NCBI GenBank assembly: GCA_027475525.1
Contig: JAMWFC010000012.1
Location: forward strand, 467,831-531,830
Length of the DNA stretch: 64,000 nt
From: Macrolepiota albuminosa
Taxonomy: Eukaryota; Basidiomycota; Agaricomycetes; Agaricales; Agaricaceae
Direction of reading: 5' to 3'
Made by a program: the position numbers and the translations under genes. Positions 1,650 through 51,129 of this stretch are shown here, piece after piece. The first letter of the stretch is position 1; each line of letters opens with the position of its first letter. The notes below the pieces were generated by a model that did not search any database, had not been told where the DNA came from, and saw nothing but the letters and a program-made list of their open reading frames with translations.

Positions 1650-2885
1650 ATGAGGATAGACTCACACTGCCCAGAGTACCTCTGGGACGAATTCTACCTC
1701 ACAGCCGCTCATCTCCACACGAGAACTCCCACTAAGTCACTAAATGGACGCACACCACACGAGTTATGGTTCGGACGCGAACCTGACTACTCTTACATGC
1801 GTGAGATCGGATGCCGCGCTTTCGTATTTGTGCAAACTCACAACCCCAAAGTAAAACCCAGATCTGTAGAGTGTATTCTGATCGGATACGGGCAGAACTC
1901 GAAAACATACCGATGTTGGGACAACGTCAACCGCAAAGTATACCAATCGTTTCACGTGAAGTTTATCGAGAGCCATGAGACTCAGTCGAATAACGTCGCA
2001 CAAAAGTCGAAAGAACGGGCGCAACCGCCGATTCCCTCGCTCCAAGAACTGGACCAGTCAGCGGCCCTTACACCACAGGAGGAGGACGATGACCTTGGAT
2101 GTGAGATGGAGACGAGTACCGCGACTTACGATGCAACCGAAACCGCTCCACCGCCGACTCAACTGCAACCAGACCTCGACAATCAAACACCTGCCAAAAA
2201 TGTCCTGAGAAGATCGACACGCACCCGTCAACCCACCGAAAAGGCAACAACGCATGAGAATCGACAAACGACGAGGTTGGAGAAGATCATGGAAGAAGTA
2301 AGGGAAGGTGAGACCAGGTCGAAACAGAGAAAATTGGAGCGACGCACACAGATACGACACGCATGCGACAACGCAGTCACGCCGAACATCGAACTAGCGC
2401 CCGCACCCACAGATGACAACATCGATCACGATCGAATACTTGCCACGATATCTCAGCTAGGCGACATCGAGCCCCTGCCACTGTTCGCGGAAGAAGAACC
2501 GAGAACATGGCAAGAAGCGAAAGAGAGCCCCGATGCAGAGAAATGGAGGCAAGCTTACCTAGAGGAGATGAAGTCTCTGAAAGACATGAACGTCTATCAC
2601 CTGATTCCACGTACAGCTGTCCCACATGGGCACAAGATACGAAAAGGCCGCCCAATATTCAAAATAAAACGGGACGAACATGGAAAAGCAGTGAGATACA
2701 AGGTGCGCCTTGTGTTCAAGGGATATGAACAAATTTACGGCAGGGACTACAACAAAACCACCTCACCGACAGCACGCATGGAATCGTGGCGGATACTGTT
2801 ACACATAGCGGCAGTGGAAGGCTGGGACGCGACCCAGATCGACGTGAAGCACGCATGGAATCGTGGCGGATACTGTTACACATAG
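1650..2885 (+). CDS. copia polyprotein, part 2 (integrase C-terminus, linker, start of RT)
   Basis: Same frame as part 1, directly after the TGA. It begins with the end of the integrase core (CPEYLWDEFYLTAAHLHTRT, ELWFGREPDYSYMR) and the domain VECILIGYGQNSKTYR. A charged linker rich in Glu, Lys and Arg follows, then the start of the RT (WRQAYLEEMKSL, RYKVRLVFKGYEQ, WDATQIDVK). The frame is lost where a 77-bp segment starting at 2772 is repeated in tandem. The last dozen residues before the stop at 2885 are read through that repeat and are not family sequence. Confidence 0.88.
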   Translation: MRIDSHCPEYLWDEFYLTAAHLHTRTPTKSLNGRTPHELWFGREPDYSYMREIGCRAFVFVQTHNPKVKPRSVECILIGYGQNSKTYRCWDNVNRKVYQSFHVKFIESHETQSNNVAQKSKERAQPPIPSLQELDQSAALTPQEEDDDLGCEMETSTATYDATETAPPPTQLQPDLDNQTPAKNVLRRSTRTRQPTEKATTHENRQTTRLEKIMEEVREGETRSKQRKLERRTQIRHACDNAVTPNIELAPAPTDDNIDHDRILATISQLGDIEPLPLFAEEEPRTWQEAKESPDAEKWRQAYLEEMKSLKDMNVYHLIPRTAVPHGHKIRKGRPIFKIKRDEHGKAVRYKVRLVFKGYEQIYGRDYNKTTSPTARMESWRILLHIAAVEGWDATQIDVKHAWNRGGYCYT

Positions 2886-2925
2886 CGGCAGTGGAAGGCT
2901 GGGACGCGACCCAGATCGACGTGAA
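2772..2925. repeat. exact 77-bp tandem duplication inside copia RT
   Basis: Copy 1 is 2772-2848 and copy 2 is 2849-2925; they are identical. Seventy-seven is not a multiple of three, so the pair shifts the RT frame. Counting it once restores a continuous RT frame. Confidence 0.95.
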
Positions 2926-4147
2926 GACTGCGTTCCTATATGGAATTCTTCCCGAAGACGAAACGCAGTACATGGAACAACCCCAGGGGTTCGAGGAGCC
3001 AGGGAAGGAAGATTGGGTATGCGAGCTGACACGCGGACTATATGGCATGAAACAAGCTGGGAGAATCTGGAACCAAACCCTAAACGAACGGATGGTCGAA
3101 TGGGGTTTTTCTCGCCTGGCCTGCGAATCCTGTATATATTACAGGAAGTCCCACACTGGTACGATTATTGCCGCCGTACATGTTGACGATTTTCTCTCTA
3201 TCGCCAGCTCAAAGGAAGAAAATGACCGTTTCAAGTCTCAAATGCGCAAAGCATGGACGATATCAGATCTCGGCACCCCGCACTACCTCGTCAGCGTATC
3301 AGTTGAATGGGACCGAGCAAACCGCGCTGTGGCATTATCCCAAACCTCCTTCATTGACAAAGTGATCCAACAGTTTGGTCAAAGCGCCGCACACCCGCTG
3401 ACTATACCAATGGAACCGGGCCTGAAGCTCAGACGGCCCAAGCGAGACGCTCAGACCCAAGATGAGAAAGACAACATCGATAAACTACCATACAGGTCCC
3501 TGGTCGGATGCCTGCTCTACATCGCAATCGCCACACGACCCGACATTGCCTTTGCCGTACAACAACTTTCGCAGTTCCTCGACAACTACGACAAATCGCA
3601 CTGGACCGCAGGCATACGTCTAGTCCGTTACCTGAAAGGAACGAGAGATCTCAAACTTCGCTTAGGGGGATCTGCCGTAGTCCTTCGAGGGTTCACAGAT
3701 GCCGACTGGGCAAGCTGCCTGGACACCAGACGTAGCACCAGCGGATACACATGGTCATTGGGCACCGGAGCAATATCCTGGTCCGTGCGAAAACAGAAGA
3801 CGGTCGCCACCTCTTCCTGTGAGGCTGAGTATATGGCGGCGTACGAGTCAACGCAGGAATGCATTTGGCTGCGCACATTTACAAAGTCACTCGGATGGGA
3901 CTTCACGCAGAAACCAACGACTCTCTTCTGCGACAATAAGGCAGCCATCACGCTATCGGAAGACCCGACGGCGCACGCACAGGTGAAACACTTCGACATT
4001 AAATATCATTTTATCCGCGAGCGCGCGCAGATGGGTGACATTATCATTAAATACGTCAACACTAGAGACAACGTCGCCGACATGTTCACGAAGGCGCTAC
4101 CCAAACCCCTATTCGTCCGACTCCGTCAAATGCTCGGACTATCATGA
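2786..4147 (+). CDS. copia polyprotein, part 3 (reverse transcriptase and RNase H)
   Basis: Carries the RT motifs QIDVKTAFLYG, GLYGMKQAGRIWN and AAVHVDDFLSI. The usual YVDD box reads HVDD, and the related element at 15-20 kb also has HVDD. RNase H follows (GFTDADWASCLDT, SSCEAEYMA, LFCDNKAAI, HFDIKYHFIRE), with the normal family end NVADMFTKALPKP...LRQMLGL before the stop. The frame differs from part 2 only because of the 77-bp repeat. The first residues of this ORF overlap part 2 and come from copy 1 of the repeat. Confidence 0.9.
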   Translation: MADTVTHSGSGRLGRDPDRREARMESWRILLHIAAVEGWDATQIDVKTAFLYGILPEDETQYMEQPQGFEEPGKEDWVCELTRGLYGMKQAGRIWNQTLNERMVEWGFSRLACESCIYYRKSHTGTIIAAVHVDDFLSIASSKEENDRFKSQMRKAWTISDLGTPHYLVSVSVEWDRANRAVALSQTSFIDKVIQQFGQSAAHPLTIPMEPGLKLRRPKRDAQTQDEKDNIDKLPYRSLVGCLLYIAIATRPDIAFAVQQLSQFLDNYDKSHWTAGIRLVRYLKGTRDLKLRLGGSAVVLRGFTDADWASCLDTRRSTSGYTWSLGTGAISWSVRKQKTVATSSCEAEYMAAYESTQECIWLRTFTKSLGWDFTQKPTTLFCDNKAAITLSEDPTAHAQVKHFDIKYHFIRERAQMGDIIIKYVNTRDNVADMFTKALPKPLFVRLRQMLGLS

Positions 4148-4209: not shown

Positions 4210-4638
4210 TGTTGGAACATCAGATGTGACGATGTGAAGAGTGAGTGAAAGGTAATATCACGAACCATTGTCATCAGTCTGGTGGCCACCGCTGCTTTGT
4301 CCGATATAACATATAATAGATAGCTAGCGTACCGAAGTACCCTCAGTTGGTTTACACACTACTGAGGGTACGTTATCCACGATTACTGCACACCCATATT
4401 TATACTAACCACGCTCATACCTAGAATATCGGCTTACTGTGTAATATTCTAGGTACATACAATACAGTTGGTTTACACACTACTGAGGAATATCGGCTTA
4501 CTGTGTAATATTCTAGGTGTAGACGACGGTCTACTTACAGCTGCTAGTTCTAGTTCTAACAGAGGAATATCGGCTTACTGTGTAATATTCTAGGTGTAGA
4601 CGACGGTCTACTTACAGCTGCTAGTTCTAGTTCTAACA
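4210..4638 (+). repeat. 3' LTR of the copia element
   Basis: Begins TGTTGGAACA and ends TTCTAACA. The LTR of the copia element at 15-20 kb has the same kind of ends. It holds two perfect 10-bp-stem hairpins (4337-4371 and 4420-4453), a smaller GTAGAC/GTCTAC stem near 4519, and partial repeats of the hairpin segments at 4465-4518. A 77-bp tandem duplication makes up the last 154 bases. Without it the LTR is about 352 bp. Confidence 0.85.
4485..4638. repeat. exact 77-bp tandem duplication at LTR end
   Basis: Copies 4485-4561 and 4562-4638 are identical and both end in TTCTAACA, so the LTR terminus itself is present twice. Confidence 0.95.
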
Positions 4639-4714
4639 TATTAGAGTATATACTGACAATATTATGATAACTACTCACCTGGCAGAGGGAGATTCAAAGA
4701 GAATGAGTCTAGAG

Positions 4715-4868
4715 ATTCTCTATGCCAGGTTGGATGCTTCTGGGGCCTCTGAAGCATGGGAAACAACTGTACAGTACAACAAAACCTTAAAATTCTCTAT
4801 GCCAGGTTGGATGCTTCTGAGGCCTCTGAAGCATGGGAAACAACTGTACAGTACAACAAAACCTTAAA
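4715..4868. repeat. 77-bp tandem duplication in LTR
   Basis: Copies 4715-4791 and 4792-4868 differ at one site (G/A). The related LTR near 20.93 kb has a single copy. Confidence 0.9.
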
Positions 4869-4943
4869 AACTCAAAAATTGCCTAAATAAACAACTGTAC
4901 AAACAAGGCAGGAAAACTCCGGACTTTGGAAGTGAGAAAAGCA

Positions 4944-5097
4944 AACTCTGGCTTATATAAGCAGTCTGGAAGTGGTGCTGAAGGGCCCACACTTGTCTGA
5001 ATAATAGCTAAAGAACCAGAAACTCTGGCTTATATAAGCAGTCTGGAAGTGGTGCTGAAGGGCCCACACTTGTCTGAATAATAGCTAAAGAACCAGA
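4944..5097. repeat. exact 77-bp tandem duplication in LTR
   Basis: Copies 4944-5020 and 5021-5097 are identical. The related LTR has a single copy near 21.07 kb. Confidence 0.92.
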
Positions 5098-5248
5098 GCA
5101 CCTCAAAGGCTGAGAATAGTACTAACAAATAGTGTTGAGAGAATAGAAACAGCAAAATGAGAGAATGATAGAAGAAATAAGGAAATGAATGAAAGGAGAG
5201 TGAAGGAATAGGGAGTGAAAGAAGGAAGAAATGAGGAGTCCCCTGACA

Positions 5249-24661: not shown

Positions 24662-25808
24662 TGATAATGCCAACTGTAGTTGGGTGCGCTGGACATATAT
24701 GCAGTACAACACCGTCTCCAGCACTTGGTGTGCGTAGTTGTGAGGAGTCCTGACAGGGTCCCAGTGTGCTCAAGTGGAGGTGATAGAATGATGTGCTAAA
24801 TTATAGCACTTCAGAGGCTACCTGGCAGACAGTAAGTGTTATAGCTTAAAGAAAGATATTGAAGAAAAGACAAGTAGTGCAGCATATTGTGCCTGTAGGT
24901 GGCACCATAAATGACAAAGACGAGATAGACAAGACTAGTGCCCGACTTAGTGATGAAGTCAGAGAAAGCTAGCGTGATTTGAACGCTAAGTGTAACTGTG
25001 TGCTCAAGAGGTTATGATTCATTGTTATATACATGTAAAGTAGCTAGTTTATATACTATGCACTACCATGTTTGCCCAGATAAAAGTCCATCTGCAGCAC
25101 TACCTCCTAGCGCCTCTCCTTGTGGTTTCCTCTAATGGTGACCTGTCAACGGCAACCTTTTGCACATGGATGACGGCTACCTCCTAGCGCCTCTCCTTGT
25201 GGTTTCCTCTAATGGTGACCTGTCAACGGCAACCTTTTGCACATGGATGACGGCGACCAACGGTGTTATGACCCACAGCAACCAGCAGCGACTCTATATT
25301 GACTTAGAATTATATGAGTCTGCTCACTTTTACTATAACTCTGATTGGCCAGGCTGTTCCAGGGTATGGTCAGAAAATCCTTGACAGACGCCGTGAGCGC
25401 TAATGTCAGCGCTACTCATTGTACCAGTTCCTGACAGGTTCAGATGTTGGATTTAAGTATATCCAGTGCTGCCGTCATTGATCCTTTTAGACTTCTGATT
25501 GAAGTGCCTCATCTAATGGCAGCACCTGCTGCTGGCTCCTTCTAGAAGTGATTGGGGTTTAGTTAGAGTCCCCTCCTGCCGTCGTGTTAGCACTATATGT
25601 TCTGAGCCTTCTTTGTCCTTGGAATAGGTGAATGGAGTGTGCTGAAGGCCTGGTAGCTGGCGGTTAGGGTAAATGGATACGTCCTGTAGTAGAGTGCCAG
25701 AGCTAGGCTGCTCTATATTCCCAACTGGCCGCTAGAGTCTTCAGTACATCAAGTGTTGGTTGGCCTATAATGTCCCTTGATGCGCTCAGTTCAAGTAGAA
25801 GCCTATCA
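24662..25808. mobile_element. 1147-bp insertion with 4-bp target duplication (probable solo LTR)
   Basis: Begins TGATAATGCC and ends GCCTATCA, so it has TG...CA ends with an imperfect terminal inverted repeat. CCAG flanks it on both sides (24658-24661 and 25809-25812). Removing it rejoins the recombinase frame. It contains no coding sequence that I recognise. A 77-bp tandem duplication at 25101 inflates its length, so the true size is probably 1070 bp. Confidence 0.7.
25101..25254. repeat. exact 77-bp tandem duplication
   Basis: Copies 25101-25177 and 25178-25254 are identical. It lies inside the 1147-bp insertion. Confidence 0.95.
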
Positions 25809-35400: not shown

Positions 35401-37274
35401 TAAGGACACTGGAATCTTCGTACCCAAGATCATTAAGTGCTTTGGATATCCCTGCTTCCCTAGAAACTTTTCCGCGCCTCCCGTTCTCAAGCGACTCGGC
35501 TGTCTGGCATTAAGTGCTTTGGATATCCCTGCTTCCCTAGAAACTTTTCCGCGCCTCCCGTTCTCAAGCGACTCGGCTGTCTGGGGAAAAGTTCAAGGTC
35601 GGGTACTGTAAAGTGGAGGATTTTTATCCAATTTTGGATATGCGATGGAATCTAGCATCTACCAGCGGAACCCACCATTACTGGCACATCGATGCCAATG
35701 GTTTTGCTACCTTTGTCTTCGTCGAGACTGGCACGAAGTTGTGGTTCGTGGCGTCGCCCAAATCTGGAAATTACGATGACTTCGGAGACTGGGATCTTTA
35801 TGTTAACGATTTTTACACCAGAAAGCCAAACGATGAAAAGTGGGACGTCGAGCTACTTGTTCTGCAGCCGGGTTCCATGCTGTTTGTCCACTGGTTATTT
35901 CTTTTCCTTATATTATTTACTGATAATATATTATTACAGCATTATGCGCCCGTGTCTACCTCACGCCGTAGTTACTCCCATACCAACAATATGCCGCGGG
36001 GGTCATTTCTACAACACATCGACTCTCGCTGCCTCGATAATCGGCTTATATCACCATTACGTTGCTTCCACATCAATATCCAACACCGACCACGCCTCCG
36101 CCTCATACACGGTGCTAATGCGCCTCCTCACCTATTTTGTCCTTGTTCTCGTCGACTCTGTGACCGAACACGGTACGTGTAGTCACCACCACATCTGTTT
36201 ATACTGTTCACGTATGTGCAGATTACGACCATGGTCATGTTCCGGACACAAACTCATGGGACGGTGTGCTGATCCTTCTTTGTCTATGCAACTATTTTGA
36301 GTTGCATGATGCACTTGTGTCTACGAACTATGCTTGGAGCGGCGACCTTCGATCCTTTGAGGTGTCCGTCAAAAACCGGGTCCGCGCGCGAAGGCTTATG
36401 TACTGGTTCTTCTCCAATCACGAACTTGAAAGCGAGTCCGATGGCAGTGTCATAACGGGTCTGCCTGCGCTTGAATACATATCGTCTCGATTCCTGGCTA
36501 CACATGCTTGTGTACTTATGCACTACAAAAAGCTCGCGTGGCTGAATAATTTACGCGGGTCCGACGCAAACACCCCACCGTCAACAACTTGTATCAACAT
36601 TCAATCCGTCCTCCGTGATGGACCTGCCTGGAAGGCATACACCCTTGTCCGTCACCGTCAACAACTTGTATCAACATTCAATCCGTCCTCCGTGATGGAC
36701 CTGCCTGGAAGGCATACACCCTTGTCCGTCTGCGTCTTGGTGCTTCCGATGTCGATCCTGCCGAATTGACGTTTGCATGGAGGGGAAGCAGATACATTGT
36801 TCGCAGAGTTCCTACAGTTGACTTTTGTGAGTGTTTTCTGCGTCTAAGTCCTGACATTTCTCATCCTTCCTCAGCTTATCCGTACATCGACGGTTATGTT
36901 TGGCGCGACTTCACGATTGCACGCCAACTCGGCGTCACGCTCACAAATGCCAATCCCCGACGCGACGAGGACGCTGACTTGTCTTGCTGGGTCGAATTTT
37001 CTGTTGATGACTTGAAATCTTACAATGCCTGCCCTGAGGTCGGTTATATCAGCGACACCCCCCCCGAATCTCCTGTACTCGCTCCTACAAACACGCCCCC
37101 CCGTAGTACCAGCCCCCGTCCTCCCAGCCCCCGTAGTCCCAGCCAAAGTGATACTTCGAGTAGCTCAAGCAGTGACGACGAATCATCGGACAGGCCCGGT
37201 GAGTTGCTCTGTACAGATATCAATATTGTACTCATTCGCGTAATCTAGCTGCTAAGCGAATCCGGCGGTCCTAG
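32466..37274 (+). CDS. JmjC-domain protein, 13 exons
   Basis: ATG 32466 lies in a strong TCACCATGG context. Exons: 32466-32588, 32643-32888, 32937-33182, 33221-33285, 33342-33537, 33590-34783, 34833-34970, 35023-35266, 35347-35881, 35940-36172, 36222-36826, 36875-37198, 37249-37274. The N-terminal third is helical. Exon 6 encodes a disordered Ser/Pro/Asp region with a basic patch (RKSARIAAKNKRR) and YIDLTLEST. The JmjC fold is in exons 9-10: GTHHYWHIDANGFATF supplies His and Asp, MRPCLPHAVVTP the second His, then GGHFYNTSTL. JmjC enzymes are Fe(II)/2-oxoglutarate oxygenases, often histone demethylases; the substrate is unknown here. The end AAKRIRRS is NLS-like. About 1340 aa. Two 77-bp duplications break exons 9 and 11. 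Collapsing the second restores phase; collapsing the first leaves a 1-nt shift at a GGGG run (35583-35587). Confidence 0.75.
35431..35584. repeat. exact 77-bp tandem duplication in JmjC exon 9
   Basis: Copies 35431-35507 and 35508-35584 are identical. The second copy puts a TAA in frame right after SSDSAVW. Confidence 0.95.
36581..36734. repeat. 77-bp tandem duplication in JmjC exon 11
   Basis: The offset-77 match runs from 36576 to 36653 without mismatch. Counted once, the exon reads WKAYTLVRLRLGASDVDPAE without a break and its length fits the splice phases on both sides. Confidence 0.95.
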
Positions 37275-37499: not shown

Positions 37500-37645
37500 T
37501 AAGCTATCGCTCCAGCTATGGTTTACGTAAGCTGTTGCTACAGCAATATTTTATGTAAGCGGCTGCTCCAGCGACGATTTATGTAATCTGCCACTCCGTT
37601 ATATTTTATGCAAGCTCCAGCGATGATTTATGTAATATGCCAGTC
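37500..37645 (-). repeat. 28-bp minisatellite, left array (inverted)
   Basis: About five diverged units. On the minus strand they read like GGAGCGATAGCTTACGTAAA, the same unit as at 45465-45830 but in the opposite orientation. Confidence 0.75.
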
Positions 37646-37656
37646 CGTTGACGTGA

Positions 37657-40600
37657 TCACTCCGTCCTGATGTATACAGCCAACGTGGCTGTCCTGGAAT
37701 TGCACTTTGACATATCGATCGAGCTAGTAGATTCACTTTCCCTTATCATTTTATGTCCAGTTGTCAATCCGTCGTGATACCAAGATTCGTTGGATGCAGA
37801 TACGTAGCGGCTTGAAAAATGAGAGTTGCCAAAATATATAACTCCTTTTAGTATGTACTTACTCACACTCGCAGAATCAACCGTCGTGATTTCAAGCCTC
37901 TTATCCACATTAACTGATACGCTTGATATATCGAAATAGACAATCGGAGGAGCCATCAAAAACTGAGAAACCTTGATTAGTCGTCTCGCACACGAATCAC
38001 ACCTTGTGCTTGTATAGCACCAAAAATCATCAACATGCTCACGAATGGATGGTCTTCCTGGCGTCAGTATGATCATTACTGATTTTGATTTAACTCTCCG
38101 ACGGGCCGTGGCATGGTGAGCTGGACAGACCATAAACGAATCAAGCACATCTGACGTGTTGACAGATAGTTCGTTAATCAAAGAGTGTACAGACGTGTAT
38201 TCACCAAATGGGAACTCTCTGTGATTCCTCTGAGACAGCTTGGTCCGAAGCCATTCCCTGGTCTCCTCGAGGGCCTCATGATCTCCCGGCGCGATACTAT
38301 GGAAATCTTTCACTAGATGTTTGTTTAGACGCGGGCTCGATGTACTAAGCTTTCGAGACCATTCTAGAGGGTCTTCTCGCCATAAGTTGTATATAATAGA
38401 CAATACGGAATCGTATGCGCAACTGTTCAGCTTCCATGAACAGGCAAAGGGGGGACAAGTACCTTGCAAAATAGACAGACTATCTGCGTGACTCAACCGT
38501 CGGCGTTTGCTTGGACCATGCTCAATATCTTCCTGTATCTTCCGTTTTCCTGTGCTACATGGATCCTTATATACCTTGGCCCCTCTGGCAGGAACGAAAG
38601 TGTTTTTGGGCAATGGTCTTTCTTGCAGTGGCCTTTCTCTTGATATTATATGCCAATTTATGTCTATGTACCCTGAATCATCAAATTGATCGTTTTTACT
38701 CCATCTCAGGGACGGATGCAAATGAGGAGGAAAGTAGGTGTCGCTTTTGCATCGTCTAAATGATGCTATCAAATCGGACCGTCTTGGAGCGTCATGGAAA
38801 CCCTTTGGCAGCTTCCCTACATACCTCAGCCTTGTTATCTCATCCAGCAACTCCAAATCCCGGAACTCCTGGCGTAGTGCGCCAGTTGCTTTTCCTTGAA
38901 TGACGGTTCTGTCAAATCCGCGTATTATAATAGTTCCGGCTGCAGTAGCGCTTCGGGACAGTGCTGTATAGTAAGCCTGATGGGATTGACATTTGAACAA
39001 GTCAACAGGATTGAAAGGCCTAGTCTTCCCTTGGCTAGCGTAATCGGTTATAGCATAGTTGACGAGTATTTCGACTTGTGATCGCGAAATTGTAATCTTT
39101 TGATCGTTAGGTAGACTGCATTCAGTCGAAACTGTGCTTCTAGTTATTGGTACTACGTCTTCAGAAAGACCTTCTATCTGTACGTGGTGCGGTGGATTCT
39201 TCAGTTTTACAAACAGCGTGTCTATCATACGTTGACCAACAGAACCCGTACACGACTTCCATCCATATACGTAACCTTCTTGACCATTTGTGATACAGAG
39301 CTCTGTGGCAATGTTAGTCTTGATGATAATAGGTAAGCCGACGCATAGCGACAGTTTGCCTGCAACTTGACCAGATGTGGATGAAGGAGGCTGCTCCCAT
39401 AAAATATTCTGAATAGAGGAGTGTAGAGGAACTCTGTTTCTACCTGATGCTCCTCGACCTTTACCTTTGCATGTGCTCTCGTCACCCTTGTCAAGTACAG
39501 TATCTTCGCTAAAGAAATCTGTCAGCTCGAGCCCACTCTCCAGGGCAAATCTACTACTTCCAACCACATTGACAGCATCTTTATCTATGTTGTGTGCTGT
39601 TATGATAGACACATTACGGAAGTCATCATTGAGAAGCGAGGAGTCTGAAAGATTGGAGACTCGCCGAGACTCCAGGAACTGGATATCGTCTTTGGTGCAT
39701 GCTCGATACCTCATGTTAGCGAGGGCCGTTCTAAAGGATTTGTCGTCTGGACTTTGCATTGTCTGTCTCATATTCTGTCTCAATATGACTACTGCAGTAA
39801 CCTGGTGCCAAACTGCTTTACCCAATGCAGCCTTTTGTTCGTTCAGATCGATAGATCGCATACCCACACTGCGACTGTACAGCGCTGCATTCTCACGGCC
39901 AGTTACTGGCGGCAGCTGGGCAAAATCGCCAGCAAACACCATGTTCATACCGCCAAAAGGGAGGTGCGACAGACCTGTAATCTGAGTAAGGCGCGCTGAT
40001 ATCTTGTACATATCCCTGCAAGACAACATGGATACTTCGTCGAAAAATACATATTGCACCCCGATAAGGCGTGACTTTACTTGAGCCAGTTGTGCCGGAG
40101 AGTCACGTACCATATCATTAATTCCAAACAGATAATGGTAAGTCGATCCACCTAACAGTGATGCTGCAGTGCCGGTAGGAGCAACCACTGCAAACCTATG
40201 AGATTCTCCACGGGCTGCAAAGTATTGGGACAGCGCTTTAAGCACCTGTGTTTTCCCGGTGCCCCCCATACCCCCCATATACATTCTCAACTGTTCGGGG
40301 TTAGAAGTGGCAGCGTGGTTAGCCACTATTCTAAATGCTCTGGTTTGTTCCTCATTGAGATTGAAACTGGTAGTAATTTCGGATATGGTGGGTTCCCATT
40401 TGATATTTAAATGTTTTTTCTCTAGGAAACTACGATCACATACTTCCACAATGCCCGGCTTGTTTTGTTCATCTGATCTTCCAACGCGCTGTTCACGAAC
40501 AGACAACATGTCTTTTTGCCTATCTTTTAATATGGACGCACGAGTTTCACTGACCTTATGTCTCCAGTAAGTACCGGGCATGTCTGACACCGAAGGTGAA

Positions 40601-43600
40601 TGCTTCGTTGTATCAGGGGAGGTTTGGGCCATTACAGGCTTATCCCAATTCAGGTTCGTCATGGTGGAAGTCATAATAGCCATGTCTCTCCGACGTTTTA
40701 ATTCGGTTTTGCCAATCTCATTACTACAGTCAAGGTCTATCCCGTAGTCCTCAGGTTGTCCGTTATCTTCGTCGTCCACATAATCCTTTTGTTCGATATC
40801 TCTGATATTGGAAACTGAATTGTCCATTCCCGGGAATGCCATACCGCCTCGCTTCAGTTGTGCATAGAAGTCGTCACGGGCATCCATACACTCATACTTA
40901 ATATTCATATTAGCCATAAGACACAATTGCCTCTCGGTAAAATGGTGGTTGTCGAATGCTGCGCTCCATAAATCATACTTGTTTTTTAAATCAGCACCTG
41001 AACGCCAAGGCTTGAATAAGGTAAGCATTGTGACGCAGTATTCGTCTCTATCCCCTTTATCACGCCTTGGAAGAGTAGGACCTATGAAATTGGGCACGCG
41101 CTTCTGCCCTGGCGGATACACAAGGGTAGCATGAGAGTCCGACAAGGGATGATCGTCTGTAAAGTTGACGGTCAGTGTGTTGGCCGTTTTAGACTTGGAA
41201 CTTTTGTTCCCTCTACGAGTTGATTTTACTCGTTCGCATCTAGAAGCCCATTCGTACAATGTCATGTTGCGCAATTCTATGCCACGGTATATGTAGTCAA
41301 ACACAGGAGATAGTCCCACTACTCGGCCTTTCTTTCTGATGATCGCTATTTTGTCAGACCCGTATGAACTGTCAGTTGGCTGATCTTCGGGCCAAGCACG
41401 TTTGACCTCGCGGACGAAGCTGGGCCAATGAAGATTGGTGAATTTATGGTCGGTGTAATGATCGGGGTTACCAAGAAGGTACATACATATCATCGGGGAA
41501 CCCATTTCTGACTTTGCACTCATTACATTGGCCATTTTTGTCATGAGAGACCTTGCTTTTTCTTGCTGTGGGAGAGGTCCGTTAACAATATCTTGGTATT
41601 TTGTGAGCACTGTGCCAACGGCCTCAAATGCTGTGTACGTTTTAAGCGATGATTTAGTTATATATTTAGTGACATATAAAAGGACACCCCTGACCGCCGT
41701 TCCCGAACGAAGACTAGTTACATCAGTGTTGCATCTAAACAAATAACTCAAAGATGCGGTGAATGTATTCAGCCATGGTTCCGCTTTACGCATATTGAGC
41801 GCACCTGTTAGAGGGTCGACTTCAGTCTGTTGGAAGAGTTCTTTGGGAAACCGAGCCTTACATCTGCCCCATTTGTTGTCTAGACATCCTTTATTCTCTT
41901 TGCCTAATTTTTTACTTCCGTCCTTCTTATATGATGTATGGCAGGTATGCACATTTGACCTAAATACAATGTCATCTACAGTGTTACGGAATTGAGTCCA
42001 CCAATTAGATGTCTCCTCACATCCGACACACTCCTGGGGCAGTGCCTGAGGGTCAGATTGACCAGCATCGGGTATACTGTCCGTAGAAGCATCACGGGCT
42101 GTTGGTACTGGGAGTCTGTTGATTGAAGTTTCTTGTTTACTCCGACACAAATGATCGGGAGGAGGGGGCTGGGGCATCGTCCGTGTGGGATCAATATATT
42201 CTGGCATCTTCTTGGATTTTTCAATGTTATCTATTACTTGGTCCATCGTCCCTGTAAGGAAGTCGCCGGTGAAGGCAGATTCCAGATATTCTACTAGGGC
42301 CCTCTGAAAGTCAGATGAGGGGTCCATGATTTTCCGACGAGCTTCCTCAGGTGATAGACTTCCACGAAGCCAAAGAAGCATATGCAGATGCAAGGTAAGT
42401 CTACCTTGCTGCTCGACTGTCCCGTAGTATGCAGACGTGTGACCATACAAGCCTTCGTGCTCAGTATCAACACCCAATACGTGCTTTATGAAAGCAGACA
42501 CCATAAAATGAAAAAATCTGGCCCCTGCAACAGGATTACGTGCAATAAGTCGATATGCAGTGTCAGAAGGTAATAATACATCAGGTTCAAACTTTATATT
42601 ATCACCGGCATAGTACAAACATATAGGGTGTCTGATATCCACAGGCGACAACGTTATAAACCAAGAAGGTGCGCCTTTGTCAATCACTAATGACCATATC
42701 TCGTTCCTCATATGCTTTTTTGTTATTGGAGATCCGTCGATCCGGCCCGACACAGCATCAACGTCTTCAATAACTTTGAAACATTTCTGTTCCTCCTGGT
42801 TCGTGGGCTTGATAATCTCGCCTTTGGCCATACGATCAGCCATACTTTTGAGTAATTCCACGTCGAGACTTGCTATGCGTTCAGCAATATGAGCAAAGTC
42901 GTTTCTTTCAATCGCCAGAAAGCCCCCTGTAGTTGCGGCTCTGATCTGCTCATGACTGAATGCCGCAAAGGGAAAGCCAGTATCTCTCTGGAACCGCTTA
43001 TCGTGATACATGAGCAGATTGCCTTTGTGAACCTTAACAGAGACACAGCCTTTTACACAGCCTGGACCCCCAAAGCCATACGGAAACAACCAGGGAAACA
43101 TTTGGGGATAAACAGTTGCGTCCTTCATCCAATTAACCGGACGGGATGAATGTCCAACCAGCAGTGCTTTGCCATTGGAGTGCCAGTGCTTCAAAGCAAT
43201 GCCTTTAAGCTCATCTTTTGTTTTTGCTGATAGGCTCTCCCCCGTCAGTCCATGCACGACAAAAGGACAATCACCGGCTGATACCCCATTGTCTCCATCA
43301 ACCTTGTAAACAGCAGGGTCAACTGTTCTGTTTTCCTCCAGAGACTCTTTGTAAACGACCTTTACAGGTGGTGTATCTTCTGGATAGTCGTCAAGATTGC
43401 TATCGCATATTTCAATGTCCGTATAAGCAGAGTGATTAAGCTTGAGCCATTCCAATGCCTGCTTCACAGCGTTTCGGCGGACAAGCAAAGGCAATCGTTT
43501 GAGATCTTCCCCAGTAGGCTGACAAGGCCCTGTAAATAGAATAGCTAAAACATCATCCATGTCAGCCCTCGGAGGAGGCAGTACATGGTAAACCTTTTCA

Positions 43601-45348
43601 ACGGGAGATTCAAAAGCGATCAAATGTGCGTTCATTTTGCTGAGACCCGAGGACGACACATGTGTGAAACAGAGAGACCTGCGTACTTTGGCGACAAGGA
43701 GCTGTTCAACCCAATTTAAACGGGATAAAACAACTGGAACAGCACCAATCCAAAAACCGTTTGCAAGTGCATACTTAGGAACTTTGCCCTTCAACAATGG
43801 GATCCTGCACTCTGAACAGACAGAATTGCATCTATGATCCAACACCGGGCCTTTTATTTCTCTCACAGATTCCGTTCCTGAACGCCTCTCCACTCTGGTA
43901 ACTCCTTTGGCGGATAACACACCGAGAAACCCTTTCATACTTTTTAGAGTATGCATATCCTTAACTGGGCGCAGCAAACCACAAACAGCGCAACCACTTT
44001 CTTCTAATTGCGCTGGACCTGTTTCGTTGCAAAAGTCGCGTATGATTTGAGTAGTTAGGCTTGGTGTAAGAGGCGCAGGAGGAAATTCGGGCTTGTCAGG
44101 GCCCCGAACATCTGCCTCAAGAACAACTTCATACTTTTGATTACGCACTACAGAGCGTCTCAGCGTGTTTCTTGCTTGTGAACTGAGTTCAGCCGTCAAT
44201 ACAGTAGACCAACTAACGCATTTCGAGCAACTGTGAGAATTAAATAAATCACTTGGATGTGACGCTCTAAAACGCTTAGGCAGCACAATCCCATGTATAC
44301 GCGCTACGGATCGTAGCTGCTTCAATGTGAGATGTTGTGAAAGGGTAGACAAAGGCAGCCTAGCATGCACGTATCCTGCAGCAATCGGGTACGACAGCAA
44401 ACCTACATCATCTGCATGATTGATGAATTTGAATACGTGTCGCGGGTTGTGTTTGCCCTGACTCGCGTCGATGTACGTATCTACTTGTGCAAAGGAGAAC
44501 GCATAGGTTTTACCACCGCCTATAGGTCGCCTGAGGACACGTTTAGGTTTACGAAGCGATCTTTGACGTCCGAGGGACTTGCGCGCGGACAATCGACCAC
44601 TCCTACGGGAAGCTCTAGACGCAGATAGATGCGAATACCCTGATATTCTAAGTCCAGGTACCACAAACGATTTTACTGCAGAAAGGGTTGAGCTAATAAC
44701 GATGTGTTGGTCCAAACAAGGCCACGTATCAGGCAAACGGTATCCACGCAGTAAGGTTTCGACAGCAAACGTAACATTACATACATTGTTCCTCATCATG
44801 CGGTTACACAATATAGGACCTAGGTGGCATCGGCGCAGGCACGCTAGAAAATCGTGACGGGACATGAGGGATCGCATCACAAAAAGTCGCGTTATCCTGC
44901 ATCGTTTGAACGTCGCCGGAACAGTCGAAAATCTACAATAATATAACCAGGGCATATAGAACCGAAAAAAAACATAGTATCGATTAGGTATGTTGACCCT
45001 AAAAAAGGAAAATACCCAATGCGTGTGTGTCCTGTTGCCCATGGAGTCTTGAATTGCAAGGTATGTGCACTGATTTGTGCACATATCAAACCGTACAGTA
45101 GTATGGCATTCTGTATAGGTACGATAGCATCGTTCAGTATCACGGATCGAGCATCGCTCAGTATCATAGATCGAGCATTGCTCGGCGTTCGACAGAACAC
45201 ATAGGTATCGAGAGCGCGCGGGTTGAATTACTGTAGGCTCCCTGTCGACCGTACATGAGATATGTCGCACCAAATTAGATACGTGCATACCTTGTGAACG
45301 ATGCATATTTAAAAACAACGAGCAATATATGGACTGATAGCCAGGCAC
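37657..45348 (-). CDS. Helitron Rep/helicase with C-terminal cysteine-protease-like domain
   Basis: One uninterrupted frame of 2563 codons. The first about 160 residues are Cys/Tyr-rich and unlike protein, so the likely start is ATG 44865 (MSRHDFLACLRRCHLG), giving 2402 aa. In full-frame numbering: Cys-rich region CAVCGLL...CSECRIP near 450-520; MFPWLFPYGFGG; the HUH rolling-circle site LTLHLHMLLW near 985; Rep tyrosines LLYVTKYITK near 1220; PIF1-type helicase with Walker A GGMGGTGKT (about 1690), Walker B VFFDEVSML (about 1765) and QLPPV. From about 2300 a separate domain begins NSCAYDSVLSIIYNLW, with later His residues (CPAHHATARR) and PPIVYFDIS, resembling a papain-fold (Ulp/USP-like) peptidase. 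All key residues are present, so the element may be active. Confidence 0.93.
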   Translation of the reverse strand: MPGYQSIYCSLFLNMHRSQGMHVSNLVRHISCTVDREPTVIQPARSRYLCVLSNAEQCSIYDTERCSIRDTERCYRTYTECHTTVRFDMCTNQCTYLAIQDSMGNRTHTHWVFSFFRVNIPNRYYVFFRFYMPWLYYCRFSTVPATFKRCRITRLFVMRSLMSRHDFLACLRRCHLGPILCNRMMRNNVCNVTFAVETLLRGYRLPDTWPCLDQHIVISSTLSAVKSFVVPGLRISGYSHLSASRASRRSGRLSARKSLGRQRSLRKPKRVLRRPIGGGKTYAFSFAQVDTYIDASQGKHNPRHVFKFINHADDVGLLSYPIAAGYVHARLPLSTLSQHLTLKQLRSVARIHGIVLPKRFRASHPSDLFNSHSCSKCVSWSTVLTAELSSQARNTLRRSVVRNQKYEVVLEADVRGPDKPEFPPAPLTPSLTTQIIRDFCNETGPAQLEESGCAVCGLLRPVKDMHTLKSMKGFLGVLSAKGVTRVERRSGTESVREIKGPVLDHRCNSVCSECRIPLLKGKVPKYALANGFWIGAVPVVLSRLNWVEQLLVAKVRRSLCFTHVSSSGLSKMNAHLIAFESPVEKVYHVLPPPRADMDDVLAILFTGPCQPTGEDLKRLPLLVRRNAVKQALEWLKLNHSAYTDIEICDSNLDDYPEDTPPVKVVYKESLEENRTVDPAVYKVDGDNGVSAGDCPFVVHGLTGESLSAKTKDELKGIALKHWHSNGKALLVGHSSRPVNWMKDATVYPQMFPWLFPYGFGGPGCVKGCVSVKVHKGNLLMYHDKRFQRDTGFPFAAFSHEQIRAATTGGFLAIERNDFAHIAERIASLDVELLKSMADRMAKGEIIKPTNQEEQKCFKVIEDVDAVSGRIDGSPITKKHMRNEIWSLVIDKGAPSWFITLSPVDIRHPICLYYAGDNIKFEPDVLLPSDTAYRLIARNPVAGARFFHFMVSAFIKHVLGVDTEHEGLYGHTSAYYGTVEQQGRLTLHLHMLLWLRGSLSPEEARRKIMDPSSDFQRALVEYLESAFTGDFLTGTMDQVIDNIEKSKKMPEYIDPTRTMPQPPPPDHLCRSKQETSINRLPVPTARDASTDSIPDAGQSDPQALPQECVGCEETSNWWTQFRNTVDDIVFRSNVHTCHTSYKKDGSKKLGKENKGCLDNKWGRCKARFPKELFQQTEVDPLTGALNMRKAEPWLNTFTASLSYLFRCNTDVTSLRSGTAVRGVLLYVTKYITKSSLKTYTAFEAVGTVLTKYQDIVNGPLPQQEKARSLMTKMANVMSAKSEMGSPMICMYLLGNPDHYTDHKFTNLHWPSFVREVKRAWPEDQPTDSSYGSDKIAIIRKKGRVVGLSPVFDYIYRGIELRNMTLYEWASRCERVKSTRRGNKSSKSKTANTLTVNFTDDHPLSDSHATLVYPPGQKRVPNFIGPTLPRRDKGDRDEYCVTMLTLFKPWRSGADLKNKYDLWSAAFDNHHFTERQLCLMANMNIKYECMDARDDFYAQLKRGGMAFPGMDNSVSNIRDIEQKDYVDDEDNGQPEDYGIDLDCSNEIGKTELKRRRDMAIMTSTMTNLNWDKPVMAQTSPDTTKHSPSVSDMPGTYWRHKVSETRASILKDRQKDMLSVREQRVGRSDEQNKPGIVEVCDRSFLEKKHLNIKWEPTISEITTSFNLNEEQTRAFRIVANHAATSNPEQLRMYMGGMGGTGKTQVLKALSQYFAARGESHRFAVVAPTGTAASLLGGSTYHYLFGINDMVRDSPAQLAQVKSRLIGVQYVFFDEVSMLSCRDMYKISARLTQITGLSHLPFGGMNMVFAGDFAQLPPVTGRENAALYSRSVGMRSIDLNEQKAALGKAVWHQVTAVVILRQNMRQTMQSPDDKSFRTALANMRYRACTKDDIQFLESRRVSNLSDSSLLNDDFRNVSIITAHNIDKDAVNVVGSSRFALESGLELTDFFSEDTVLDKGDESTCKGKGRGASGRNRVPLHSSIQNILWEQPPSSTSGQVAGKLSLCVGLPIIIKTNIATELCITNGQEGYVYGWKSCTGSVGQRMIDTLFVKLKNPPHHVQIEGLSEDVVPITRSTVSTECSLPNDQKITISRSQVEILVNYAITDYASQGKTRPFNPVDLFKCQSHQAYYTALSRSATAAGTIIIRGFDRTVIQGKATGALRQEFRDLELLDEITRLRYVGKLPKGFHDAPRRSDLIASFRRCKSDTYFPPHLHPSLRWSKNDQFDDSGYIDINWHIISRERPLQERPLPKNTFVPARGAKVYKDPCSTGKRKIQEDIEHGPSKRRRLSHADSLSILQGTCPPFACSWKLNSCAYDSVLSIIYNLWREDPLEWSRKLSTSSPRLNKHLVKDFHSIAPGDHEALEETREWLRTKLSQRNHREFPFGEYTSVHSLINELSVNTSDVLDSFMVCPAHHATARRRVKSKSVMIILTPGRPSIREHVDDFWCYTSTRCDSCARRLIKVSQFLMAPPIVYFDISSVSVNVDKRLEITTVDSASVSKYILKGVIYFGNSHFSSRYVSASNESWYHDGLTTGHKMIRESESTSSIDMSKCNSRTATLAVYIRTE

Positions 45349-45353
45349 CGTAC

Positions 45354-45464
45354 ACAGACAATCTCATCGTTGAAATCAATTCACGAGTACAAAACAAGTT
45401 ACATATGAAGCAACCATCACTATAGTCACCTGATCTAATATTACATCACAACTCGAAACCATCG
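45354..45464. other. non-coding upstream of the Helitron ORF
   Basis: AT-rich and without open frames. If the ORF starts at 44865, this and 44866-45353 form its leader/promoter region. Confidence 0.4.
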
Positions 45465-45830
45465 ATGGAGCGATAGCTTACATAAACCATGTCCAGAGTA
45501 GCAGCTTATATAAACCATTGTTGGGGCGACAGCTTACATAAACCACTGCTGGAGCGACGGCTTACATAAACCACCGCGAGAGCCATAGCTTACATAAACC
45601 ATTGCTGGAGCGATGGCTTATATAAACCACTGCTAGAGCAACAGCTTACATAAACCACCGCTAGAGCAATAGCTTACATAAACCATTGCTGGAGCGACGG
45701 CTTACATAAACCACCGCTAGAGCAACAGCTTACATAAACCACCGCTGGAGCAACAGCTTGCATAAGCCACTGCTAGAGCGACAGCTTACATAAACCACTA
45801 CTAGAGCGACAGCTTACATAAACAAGCATT
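45465..45830 (+). repeat. 28-bp minisatellite, right array (13 units)
   Basis: Thirteen units of 28 bp with consensus GAGCGACAGCTTACATAAAC followed by CACTGCTG. Units vary at a few positions, nearly all transitions. Confidence 0.92.
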
Positions 45831-46138
45831 AACACAGTAACCGAAGGTAACGCGACGAAAGATTCAAAGCACGTTGGAAGTACAATTAAATCCAGTGGGG
45901 TAACAAACCATTTATACATAGATTTGCCGAAGAAAAGATTATTCACTCAGTGAACAAACGGTCAAACAAACAACGGCTCAACAAAAAGTCTGTCTATATC
46001 GAGACTATCAAAACAACGCAACACAAAAACGACTGCTAAAAGTAACAAGTAACGTCCGATGGCTAGATGGCTAAGGTCACAACTGATGTCACAATCCGCC
46101 CGTCTGCACTGTGCCTCCCAGGCGGAAGGTCGCCGAAT

Positions 46139-46142
<4 letters not shown>

Positions 46143-46180
<38 letters not shown>
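46143..46180 (+). repeat. (T)38 homopolymer
   Basis: Thirty-eight T in a row. On the minus strand it is a poly-A 45 nt after the stop codon of the 46225-48058 gene. Length in an assembly is uncertain. Confidence 0.95.
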
Positions 46181-46181
<1 letters not shown>

Positions 46182-46224
46182 GCACAGTCGACCAACAAGG
46201 ACAAAGGAGCGGCGAAAGCAGGAA

Positions 46225-48058
46225 CTACTTACGCCCCTTGGACTTGGCCTTCCCCTTAGTGGCACCGGCGCGGTCCACCACAAGAGCAGGTTCAACAAGA
46301 CGCATCACGTAAGTAGGGTCGTGCAACACAATGACAAACAGCAAGTTCAAGGTGAGATACCTGAAAAACGTGAGAACATATTCAAACACAACGAACACCA
46401 ACGTACTTGTGACCACCGGACTCATACCAGTTGGCACTAAAACCAACACTGACGACAGAACTTTCCGGAACCTCAACATTGTTGTTTTCGTATGGACGCC
46501 AAGAAGGAAGAGAATCAAAGTCACTGGGCGTAAAACGGAACGGTTGACCGGTTTCTACCCTGCCGTCATACACAGGTACTGAGAAAATGTTAGAACACCA
46601 TCTGGAAACGAGCATAACAAGAACCTTTTTGATCAAACTCAACGACCGGCTTATACAGATCGGCAACCCCAGCCGATTTGAACACAGGAGCATCCATCTC
46701 GGTAAACATTGAGTTACTCTTTATACCGGAGGGCCTCTTGGACTTAGGGGTCGCGTACCCACCGTCTGAAGTCACATCAAATGCAGAACCAACAAAAACA
46801 ACGAATCACGACTCACCAACATTGTATGTAGGGGTTTTACCCTCACCTCTAGTAACAAATGCCACACCATTACCAGAAATAGTACCTCGAACACCGTCCG
46901 GGAGGTTGAAAACACAACCCAAAACAGCAAACTGGCGAAGAGACTCTTGATGGAATTCAACAATCTCGATACGATGCTGACCATACTTGTCAGACGGACT
47001 CCCAACAAGAACAGAACTGTCAAATAAATGCGAGGCAGTTACCACTCCAGAGGTAATACAGACACAGAAGGGACCCGTCAAATCCCGAAGAGCCAATCGC
47101 TGCTTCGGGGCATTGAGTTGGACAGGGTCAGTCCTGGCCAAGTTAACGTAGAAGGCGTGACGATTGAATAAAAGAGAAGACGACAACGAACTGTTGAAAA
47201 AGTCATACATAAGAACAGAAAAAAATACAAAACAAGAAGCAAAACGCACGTCCAATTGTCTTCATTCATATGCTCAGCAACAACACCAATGCGCGCGTAA
47301 CGGATTTTACCGTCACTGTTCATTTTGTCATATCCAAAAGGCTGGATTATGAGTTGTTTCCTGACGACAAGTTGAGTAAATGCAAGCAAAATAGTAGACG
47401 TTGGTCCGCACTTAAGGAACGGCAGTCCTTGATAAGTCGACACCATAAACTTTTCTTGGATAGAAGGCTGCATGACCGCATCCACTGCAAGCTCTTCCGC
47501 AGGATCGAGACAAGGATCAATGCTGCAGCAAGACATCAACAAATGAGGTACAGAGACGAAGGGAAGAAAATAAAATAAAATAAACATACGGTTCAACAGC
47601 ATCTGAGCGGACAATCGAAAGCGGAGCAGCCAAAGCAGACGAAACGGGGACGGGAGGCACGGGAGACTCGCCATCTTCCGACAATCCATAATCGGGAGCA
47701 GAACTATCATCGACAATAAAGTCCGATAGCGTGTCACTATTATTGTCCGCAACATCCCAATCGTCGATGTTATCATCGCCCGCCGTGACAACAAGAGGCT
47801 TCTTAACAAGCGGTCTAGGTACGGGCCGCTTAGCAATCCTATACCAAAGCGAAAAGAACAAAATGAGCACAAGCAAATAACAGAAGAAACAATCCACACT
47901 GACACAACAGGCAAGTCATCATCGTCATCGTCAGACAAGTCAACAAGTTTTTTGGGTGCAAATTCGTCATCCAAATTCGGACTAGCGGCCTTGGCCGCAG
48001 CTCCGGCACGCGACCTTTTAGGGCTTGACTGGCTCGCAAACAAAGCCTTCTCCGTCAT
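46225..48058 (-). CDS. multi-exon gene of unknown function beside the Helitron (499 aa)
   Basis: Seven exons join in phase: 48058-47904, 47838-47590, 47522-47250, 47190-46817, 46765-46625, 46578-46407, 46360-46225, total 500 codons. Donors include GTATGT, GTGCGT, GTGAGT and GTACGT. The product starts MTEKALFASQSSPKRSRAG, then has an acidic run (LSDDDDDDLP), a folded-looking middle (IDPCLDPAEELAVDAVMQ; FYVNLARTDPVQLNAPKQR), a conserved-looking end (FRFTPSDFDSLPSWRPYEN; ESSVVSVGFSANWY; YLTLNLLFVIVLHDP) and a basic tail GKAKSKGRK. I recall similar C-terminal patterns in multi-copy hypothetical proteins of agaricomycetes but cannot verify this. It may be Helitron cargo. Its start codon overlaps the stop of an upstream frame (ATGA). 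Confidence 0.72.
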
Positions 48059-48059
48059 G

Positions 48060-48829
48060 GTACGGGAGCGCCTTGAGAGTGCAAAACATAAGGCAAACCG
48101 CGCATGAACGCGAACAAATCAGAAATCACGTACACAGCACGACCACTTGACAAGGTCGCATCTTCAGCAGTCAATCCAGCCATAGCCCGACTACATAGCA
48201 GCAGTCAAGCAAAGTAACAAGGAAAACGGAGATACAAACATGACAGGTGTATCAACGGACGGAATAGACACAGCCCTCTTTTTCTTGGGCGACGGCGTGG
48301 CAGGAACACTAACAGAACTGACACCAAGACATTAAGTAAAACGATAGTCACAAATACAACAAGTAACACACGAACCCATCATGCGAAGCAGAAACCTTTC
48401 GCTTAGACGGCGACCCGCCGTCAATAGACCTAAATAACATTAGCATTACAGATTACAACACGAAAAGAGTACTCACCCAGCAGATGGTTCGCCTGTTTCA
48501 GATCCAGAAGCTGTCGCCGCAGAAACGCTATCAAATATGCTACAATAAGCAAATTAGCAAGACCAACCGGAACTGAAAGAGCCGTACACACGCTTGCAAC
48601 CTATCCGCACTCCTGCACCGAGGACAACAAGTTTTTTTCTTTAAAAAAAAAAAAAAAACCGTACACACGCTTGCAACCTATCCGCACTCCTGCACCGAGG
48701 ATAACAAGTTTTTTTCTTTAAAAAAAAAAAAAAAAATCAAAGACACCAATATAAAACACACATGGTCTTGAGTTGGTCAACAAGTGTCTGAGCCTTATTC
48801 TCTTCAGACTTTATCTTGCGAGGGGGCAT
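48060..48829 (-). CDS. probable 5' exons of the same gene, or a separate small gene
   Basis: The minus strand from ATG 48829 reads MPPRKIKSEENKAQTLVDQL, then short exon-like pieces ending in GT: FDSVSAATASGSETGEPSAG, SIDGGSPSKRKVSASHD, SVSVPATPSPKKKRAV, then MAGLTAEDATLSSGRAVYVI ending HSQGAPVP with a TGA that overlaps the next ATG. The pieces are Ser/Pro-rich with an NLS-like SPKKKRAV, as for a disordered N-terminus. If GTACGT near 48.13 kb is a donor and the AAG just before the next ATG an acceptor, it fuses in frame to the downstream gene. Exon limits are not certain, and a 77-bp duplication (48582) disturbs an intron. Confidence 0.45.
48582..48735. repeat. 77-bp tandem duplication ending in an A-run
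   Basis: Copies 48582-48658 and 48659-48735 differ by one C/T. The A-run after copy 2 is one base longer. Confidence 0.9.
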
Positions 48830-49576
48830 GGGTTCGTATAGTGACACAAAACACACAGAGAAAAAAGAGGAGGCGGAGAGGGGATTATCAAGGAGAGTGG
48901 ACAAAGGACACTTATATAGAGCAGCAAGCTGCACGTCGCATCAAGGAGGGAAAGACAGTATAACGTAAAGAACGGTGTATCCCTTTCTTCGAACAAAATA
49001 AAATTAAGTAGAATGAAAATTTCAGTAAGACAAGATTCACAGAAGGCACAGCGGGACCTTTTAGATAGAACACAAGCATTGCAGATCCACAACTCGTAAC
49101 GTTGTACCTTAATAGCCGTAACCTCAGAAGGGCAACACACTAGAGATTCACCAATGAGAGGACAAAGAAAGAGAGACAGAGGAACATCATAAGGTCTGTC
49201 CCTGAACAGTTGAGGATGATAAAACGAAGCCAGAAACGAAGCCAGAAATTAATGTACCACTGGAGACAGACTACGGGAAGCGTCACGATGACAGGCACAG
49301 AAGGTACCAAACAACCGAAGTGCATATACCAAAAAAGACGAAGCCGATAGGAAGGAAACGAGTTGGGTATGGGATAGGTAAACCAAGATACGTCACGTCA
49401 TACACAGGAAAACAGTCGAGGCACTCACTGATCACTTCCTGATACTATAAAGAATACACAGATAGCACAACAGACTAGAAGGATATCAAGACACAGCAGC
49501 AATACAATGTACGTCTAGCCACTGTCCGACAGGTGTATTATACTGACAGAGCCACAGTAGATATATCATAACAAAA
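48830..49576. other. intergenic, divergent promoters
   Basis: Lies between the start of the minus-strand gene (48829) and the plus-strand gene (49577). No coding sequence is seen. The arrangement allows shared regulation of the two genes. Confidence 0.45.
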
Positions 49577-50743
49577 ATGACCTTAGGAGCAGATTACGAC
49601 ACAGAGGCAGCAAGTAAGCAACGTTTACAGACATCTCAACATCAGTAGACTCATCACGCAACCAAGAAACTGCGATTGAGAAAGCCATACGCAAAGGAGA
49701 AGAAGAAAACGACGTTATGTTGACCAGCGTCGCAAACGTAAGTAACCAAACCGCACACCGTATGTCGGACTATCAACATACAAGACATAACAGGAACCAA
49801 GATGGGCAGAAGCCATTAAGACAAAAGAAGTAAATAAGCCTCACTCATGGCGACTAGTGTACGTCCATGAAGACGGCGATATATCAGACGAGGAGTTGGT
49901 TTTCACGGTATACGGAGCCATAAGCGAAAAGGATCTCCTGCCACTGAAAAGAGAAACACGCATGAGGTGCGTTCAATGAGATCCAACAGAACAGAGTCTA
50001 ATCACATAAAGCAGCGACTACAGACGACTGAAATACATGAAGCAATACGTGAAGCTGGACGGCCTAGGAACAAAACATTTCGACGATGCAATGATAGGAG
50101 CAACGGAGATTAACAAGCACTTCGAACTTGAATTCTCAGAAGGCCGTCTCGAATGCTGGTATAACGCGTTCCTCGGACAGCAAGAAAGATCACTAGACAT
50201 CGCGAACAGGATATTTACACCGACATGCGATGTAGAGAAGAACGAACAACACATTCCCATGGACAGGGAACTAGACCCGTACAATCTCACAGAGAAAATA
50301 AGGCAGAAAGGGTTCATGATTACCGAAGACAACGTGGTCCAATTTTCGAAGATGAAGGTAAATGAAGGGAACAGGACAACGTAAGTACAACACAATAGAG
50401 CAACACACAAAACTGAAGGAAACTTAAGATACGAACATTACAAGCCGGAAAGATTCCGAGTGGGAGACCTCGTTTCTGTCCAGCTATCTTTCCAGGTTGT
50501 TAACCTGGCGGGTGGGAAACTCAAAATGCTTCTCGTATTGAGATCCATGACTCTTATCGAGCACCGGTCTAGCTTCATAAAAGTGAGCGACAAAGCAACA
50601 CAGTAAACACACTGATAAACACCCCACAGAACGTAGTATCCAACAAAGGGACCAAGAACAAACTGAAGAGAAAGCTGAGAGACATTTCAGACAAGGGCCA
50701 GAACAGAATGGACGTAGACGCATCAGGCAACGGCAACCAATGA
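49577..50743 (+). CDS. 6-exon gene of unknown function, divergent from the previous gene (308 aa)
   Basis: Exons 49577-49613, 49646-49737, 49794-49966, 50024-50380, 50429-50582 and 50630-50743 join in phase to 309 codons ending TGA; donors are GTAAGC, GTAAGT, GTGCGT, GTAAGT and GTGAGC. The product starts MTLGADYDTEAA. It has SWRLVYVHEDGDISDEELVF, then a helical middle (LECWYNAFLGQQERSLDIAN), a beta-rich motif ERFRVGDLVSVQLSFQVV and KLKMLLVLRSMTLI, and a basic-acidic tail (LKRKLRDISDKGQNRMDVD). I have an impression that this motif is common in agaricomycete hypothetical proteins, unverified. No enzyme motif. Alternative: the last donor is skipped and the protein ends soon after KATQ. Confidence 0.7.
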
Positions 50744-51129
50744 TTACATCGATCAAAAAGCCTTCAATTGCGACCACGACACTCGGATCTCATTCGCTTT
50801 GTCACATTGTCAATAACGGCCTCGTTGATCTTTGCCAATCGCATATAGTTTCGACTACGATTCACAGACACTTGCTTGGGTCTGACTATATTGTCGTCCT
50901 GCTTCCTTCCCTAACGAGTCCACTGGACCCGTATTTTGTTTCTCCCTCATCCACCGATCCTTCTCGTTTTAGTCGCTTTTATAGTATTCCCGCATCATCA
51001 TATTACCAAATACACTGCATTTGCCCACAAATGTAATATCACAAACAAACAACTTTTATAGTATTCCCGCATCATCATATTACCAAATACACTGCATTTG
51101 CCCGCAAATGTAATATCACAAACAAACAA
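50744..51129. other. non-coding sequence with duplicated tail
   Basis: No gene is recognised. The right part is the 77-bp duplication that starts at 50976. Confidence 0.5.
50976..51129. repeat. 77-bp tandem duplication
   Basis: Copies 50976-51052 and 51053-51129 differ at one site (A/G). Confidence 0.92.

Follow-up and report, generated by a model that had tools for sequence, protein, structure and literature searches.

The window, the whole stretch of 64,000 nucleotides analysed here from the Macrolepiota albuminosa assembly GCA_027475525.1, includes: (i) a copia element with its reverse-transcriptase region, (ii) long terminal repeat (LTR) sequences at 4639-5248 and 20791-21294, (iii) a gene at 33.6-37.2 kb, and (iv) a 2568-amino-acid open frame on the minus strand (37657-45363) with DUF6570, Helitron_like_N and PIF1 domains. 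A large repeat covers the part between about 35.4 and 51 kb. The repeat that holds the 2568-amino-acid frame (33578-51053) keeps the order of its marker units in 30 to 34 pairings among the matches listed, and is read as a large Helitron-like element that seems to take the 33.6-37.2 kb gene with it. Fungal Helitrons are reported to capture genes (PMC4289320). A 28-bp satellite of about 13 copies is located at 45456-45823, with similar units at 37498-37590 (in the opposite orientation) and 51132-51200; the first two of these arrays flank the Helitron-like frame. The tandem array at 51711-51935 is composed of 51- and 64-bp units, which share sequence and are 13 bases apart in length. One G-alpha-like open reading frame aligns, along about 82% of its length, with proteins named Termitomyces at 88-90% identity, which makes a Termitomyces or near relative the likely source of the DNA.

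Distributed over these features are nine tandem pairs of period 77 (Table 1), which a script scan (periods 20-399, threshold 93%) and Tandem Repeats Finder place where an earlier note on this DNA had located them. The only other periods that reach 93% in the window scan are 28, 51, 64 and 84, all of satellite arrays. Match runs in the nine pairs are 77-79 bases long when single mismatches are counted through; six pairs are perfect and three carry one transition each (G/A at 4715, C/T at 48582 and A/G at 50976), as had been described. The units are named here after the starts first given for them, which are accurate in general; at 36581 the exact run begins 4-5 bases earlier, and the corrected start is 36576 or 36577. 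No sequence is evidently common to the nine printed units, in keeping with the earlier description, and at least one near-identical copy of every unit is found elsewhere in the assembly.

Table 1. Tandem pairs of period 77 in the window (positions of the window; a dot in the strand column denotes no strand).
Feature	Position	Strand	Basis
Pair in copia reverse-transcriptase region	2771..2926	.	79 exact matches in run
Pair, probably the last 77 bases of the copia LTR	4485..4638	.	exact run of 77
Pair in LTR, one G/A difference	4715..4869	.	run comparison
Pair in the LTR that also carries the 4715 pair	4943..5097	.	Tandem Repeats Finder and run comparison
Pair in multicopy repeat	25100..25254	.	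Tandem Repeats Finder and run comparison
Pair in multicopy gene of the large repeat	35431..35584	.	exact run of 77
Pair in the gene that also carries the 35431 pair	36576..36730	.	exact run 36576-36653
Pair with poly-A end, one C/T difference	48582..48735	.	run comparison
Pair, one A/G difference	50976..51130	.	Tandem Repeats Finder and run comparison

The pairs interrupt sequences that are continuous in other copies. At the first pair, the copia reverse-transcriptase frame breaks into two open reading frames (1647-2885 and 2729-4147) and the RVT_2 family match likewise falls into two pieces, while a copy elsewhere with a single unit stays open through the site; a restored frame had been claimed from the sequence, and this copy bears it out. 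The LTR at 4639-5248, compared to that at 20791-21294 (396/441 identical), has the two extra 77-base stretches expected from the earlier note, one aligned as 77 and the other as 68 + 9, and also one extra stretch of 15 bases. For the gene at 33.6-37.2 kb, the claim of a JmjC gene whose frame is restored by counting the unit once stands in part: the frame fits another copy, in which the 35431 unit is single, but the JmjC name is not confirmed, as no Pfam family matches the gene at E 1. Its matches to solved structures are weak only (Cat1, E 0.024; a KDM7 homologue, E 0.097), and a protein search with the open reading frame at 33578-34837 gave no match at E 0.001.

The length of the pairs is fixed well beyond the window. 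The host assembly comprises 100,137,612 bases in 129 contigs, from which 298,549 non-redundant bases on 42 contigs were sampled (the window, 92 loci with matches to the units, and an additional two stretches of 5 kb; the short loci L095-L106 stand outside the count); this sample is biased towards repeats and represents only part of the genome. A length distribution without a peak at 77 had been named beforehand as a possible refutation; a spike is found: at 95% identity, pairs of period 77 number 47 (9 are those of the window and 38 lie elsewhere, on 17 contigs), against 6 sites for all other periods of 20-400 together. Five of these six are the satellite arrays of the window and the sixth is a period of 21 on contig C115. 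By distinct sequence the period-77 pairs number 45, of which 37 are perfect and 8 have one mismatch. Run lengths at the 37 perfect sites are 77 (18 sites), 78 (14), 79 (4) and 80 (1), a distribution of a fixed 77 plus chance extension, as expected. The two 5-kb stretches, which were picked without regard to repeats, hold no pair in their 10 kb, and the count of N is 0 across the 92 fetched loci. One duplication length irrespective of sequence is what an unmerged de Bruijn k-mer overlap requires, whereas replication slippage requires a spread of unit lengths.

Distances between units vary among repeat copies in steps of the same size. The interval from the 35431 to the 36581 unit is 1071-1075 bases in 23 of 34 copies, and in each of the other 11 it exceeds this by 77, 154 or 231, to within 2 bases, among the matches listed. 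Of the copies displaced in the 48582-50976 interval, again among the matches listed, 10 of 16 deviate from a multiple of 77 by at most 5 bases, where about 2.3 are expected. Length differences among copies are whole multiples, as an unmerged overlap requires, in 11/11 and 10/16 displaced copies. The 12-kb interval between the 36581 and 48582 units is not clearly quantised at 77 bases: the 5-base margin takes in 5 of its 17 displaced copies, compared to about 2.4 expected, among the matches listed. These counts use 40/43, 40/41, 40/43 and 37/43 of the matches to the four units; second copies of pairs, short partial matches and three matches with no partner were left out. Within the copia copy of the window, 1713 bases separate the 2772 and 4485 units, compared to 1637 on contig C88 and to 1636 on contig C93, which the window exceeds by 77. 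Between the LTR unit and the 2772 unit, C93 (about 306,000-309,700) measures 3724 compared to 3647 in the window, an excess of 77, as if a separate pair were present further upstream in the C93 copy; this stretch was fetched in part.

The units often end where copies of a repeat begin to differ. A branching k-mer, which has a copy elsewhere with a different neighbouring base, is found here as an excess and not at every site: at seven of the nine units in the window (2772, 4485, 4715, 4944, 25101, 35431 and 50976) and at 6 of 30 perfect sites outside it. For the 77-mer at 2773-2849, one of the fetched loci (L003, on contig C93) holds an exact match, which is preceded by a different base. Three exact copies of the 4485 unit (L009, L010 and L013) continue into two kinds of sequence, both unlike that of the window. 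Among the matches listed, C36 and C93 have exact copies of this unit in pairs with a spacing of 5,360 bases, as the LTRs of one element would be; thus, judged from sequence, the unit is probably the last 77 bases of the copia LTR and the point of divergence the exact LTR end. The first copy of the 4715 unit has at least 20 other exact matches, two of which form a tandem pair on C112, and the flanking base differs in some copies. The 4944 unit has one other exact copy among the matches listed (L053), with a different adjoining base. Exact copies of the 25101 unit at two other places (C44 and C79) have different flanking bases on both sides, and the unit is doubled on C79 too. For the 35431 unit, at least 11 other exact copies are found and the next base differs in one of the six fetched, while for the 50976 unit, taken over 50977-51053, it differs in 3 of 12 exact contexts among 12 short loci. 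Another copy of the latter repeat has a period-77 pair about 10 bases from the 50976 site (L100, C75:105071-105310). Edge divergence is absent from the 36581 unit, whose sole exact copy among four other fetched loci agrees on both sides, and from the 48582 unit, where none of the 13 exact contexts of the first copy in 18 other fetched loci diverges at the edge. An exact copy elsewhere is not special by itself in LTRs, since a control 77-mer at 5120 has at least two; a control at 25350 has no other exact copy among the matches listed.

A sliding local control, computable for five units, finds that between 10/852 and 39/1309 positions diverge by chance. Three of these five units are at a divergence point, for which the arithmetic gives odds of about 1 in 10,000. 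The remaining units (4715, 4944, 25101 and 50976) have no local null, as their copies share no exact 77-mer off the unit or are too short, and these units served as search queries, hence exact copies of them were sought. For the 30 sites outside the window, local controls predict 0.54 at a diverging base; six or more were reached in 1 of 200,000 simulations, a probability that is a guide only, since near-identical copies are not fully independent (some repeat copies sit in large duplicated blocks) and the L015 site repeats the 25101 unit. Loci belonging to the window are excluded from this test, as are mismatched sites, several loci that overlap or duplicate others, and one perfect site, which was lost together with its locus L030; the overlapping pairs L003/L009 and L004/L014 are included, where overlap can add non-diverging contexts only. 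About 0.3% of the genome was available for this comparison, in which 24 of the 30 sites show no edge divergence; an exact copy is in hand for 15 of the 30, and 9 of those 15 do not diverge.

The mismatched pairs in the window are asymmetric. At 48582, the first copy has 13 exact contexts and the second 0 in the 18 other fetched loci; at 50976 (50977-51053), the second copy has 12 and the first 0 in the 12 short loci; and at 4715, the second copy, unlike the first, is without an exact match in 19 other fetched loci. Since one copy of each pair matches other repeat copies exactly and the other matches none of those fetched, this asymmetry suggests that, in the three pairs, one contig end was subsequently altered by polishing or mismatch correction.

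The exact length of the pairs, the spike at 77 in the sample, the quantised lengths of one repeat interval and the excess at divergence points support the proposal of the earlier note, and it is held here, at a probability of about 0.96, that the nine 77-bp pairs are assembly artefacts, unmerged 77-base contig overlaps, and not real DNA. A k-mer with differing next or previous bases ends a contig; contig ends are thus expected where repeat copies diverge. A short-read de Bruijn assembler would have stopped its contigs at branching 77-mers at such points, so that both contigs meeting at a branch would carry the identical 77 bases, and a later joining step (scaffolding or gap closing that left no N) may have set the contig ends end to end with no trimming. 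From this, the use of de Bruijn software and a single copy of the unit in the reads are inferred. SPAdes at k=77 likewise leaves 77-base overlaps, and 77 is a common final k of this assembler. The pairs with one mismatch (8/45) mean that this unmerged-overlap reading needs an extra correction step.

Related effects are described in other assemblies. In part of one study (PMC5368935), SNP calls from de Bruijn assemblers accumulate k bases away from the ends of contigs, in a way that matches the reported k, and unresolved repeats are suggested as the cause. In the vertex notation of that text, an overlap of 77 corresponds to k=78, while other papers, including that of SOAPdenovo2, are said there to count the overlap itself as k. 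The copy differences of this positional bias are one base past a fixed overlap, like those of most units here; however, the bias concerns variant calls, whereas here the sequence is doubled. The k-mer overlaps at the ends of SPAdes-type contigs, which Unicycler removes according to part of its description (PMC5481147), are likewise assembly-made sequence shared by neighbouring contigs, but here the overlaps are retained inside joined contigs as tandem pairs. False duplications, as treated in part of PMC9516828, are also assembly-made and affect gene models; their cause there is heterozygosity and read errors, in contrast to the one fixed length found here. Searches of the literature on k-sized tandem artefacts did not find exactly this joined form, which does not show that it is absent.

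Ordinary slippage during replication, or unequal repair, with products that transposon copies then inherit, would account for the many sites in transposons and for a 25101 unit doubled at two places. Slippage yields a spread of lengths, however, and it is rejected on the single spike at 77 in 298,549 bases. The position of the pair also varies by copy, as on C75, where the doubling is about 10 bases from the 50976 unit, and copies carry 0, 1, 2 or 3 extra units; this explanation is therefore given hardly any credence. A real fungal process with a replication or repair ruler could make tandem duplications of exactly 77 bp, and many of them, and the 8/45 pairs that differ by one base are what slightly aged real duplications would look like. 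Such a ruler does not predict the excess at points of divergence between repeat copies or at the LTR end, and the pairs disrupt frames that are intact in other copies; on this siting and these frames, fixed-length biology is rejected as highly improbable. A strict 77-bp ruler acting preferentially where repeat copies start to differ, e.g., by recombination between copies, is judged just as improbable, and no biological process that predicts fixed-length pairs at divergence points is known to us. The last alternative is a different artefact with a fixed 77-base overlap, e.g., string-graph or read-length joins. String-graph overlaps vary in length, and a fixed 77 coincides with the common final k of SPAdes, which leaves this a very unlikely source of the pairs, even though the peak position goes with read length for a string-graph assembler in part of PMC5368935.

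Paired matches at constant offsets are noted on three contigs (556,397 bases on C81, 236,323 on C90 and 104,673 on C114), which suggests large duplicated blocks inside these contigs and, possibly, further assembly errors.

If the pairs are unmerged overlaps, the lengths of repeats and the broken genes in this window are not to be trusted. Should a good part of the 100-Mb assembly resemble the repeat-biased sample (47 pairs in 298.5 kb), extrapolation would give thousands of false 77-bp insertions, which break frames, lengthen transposons and imitate tandem duplication. While the biological interest of the pairs is low, their practical interest for users of the assembly is real: gene models, indel counts and transposon dating derived from it need a 77-bp filter.
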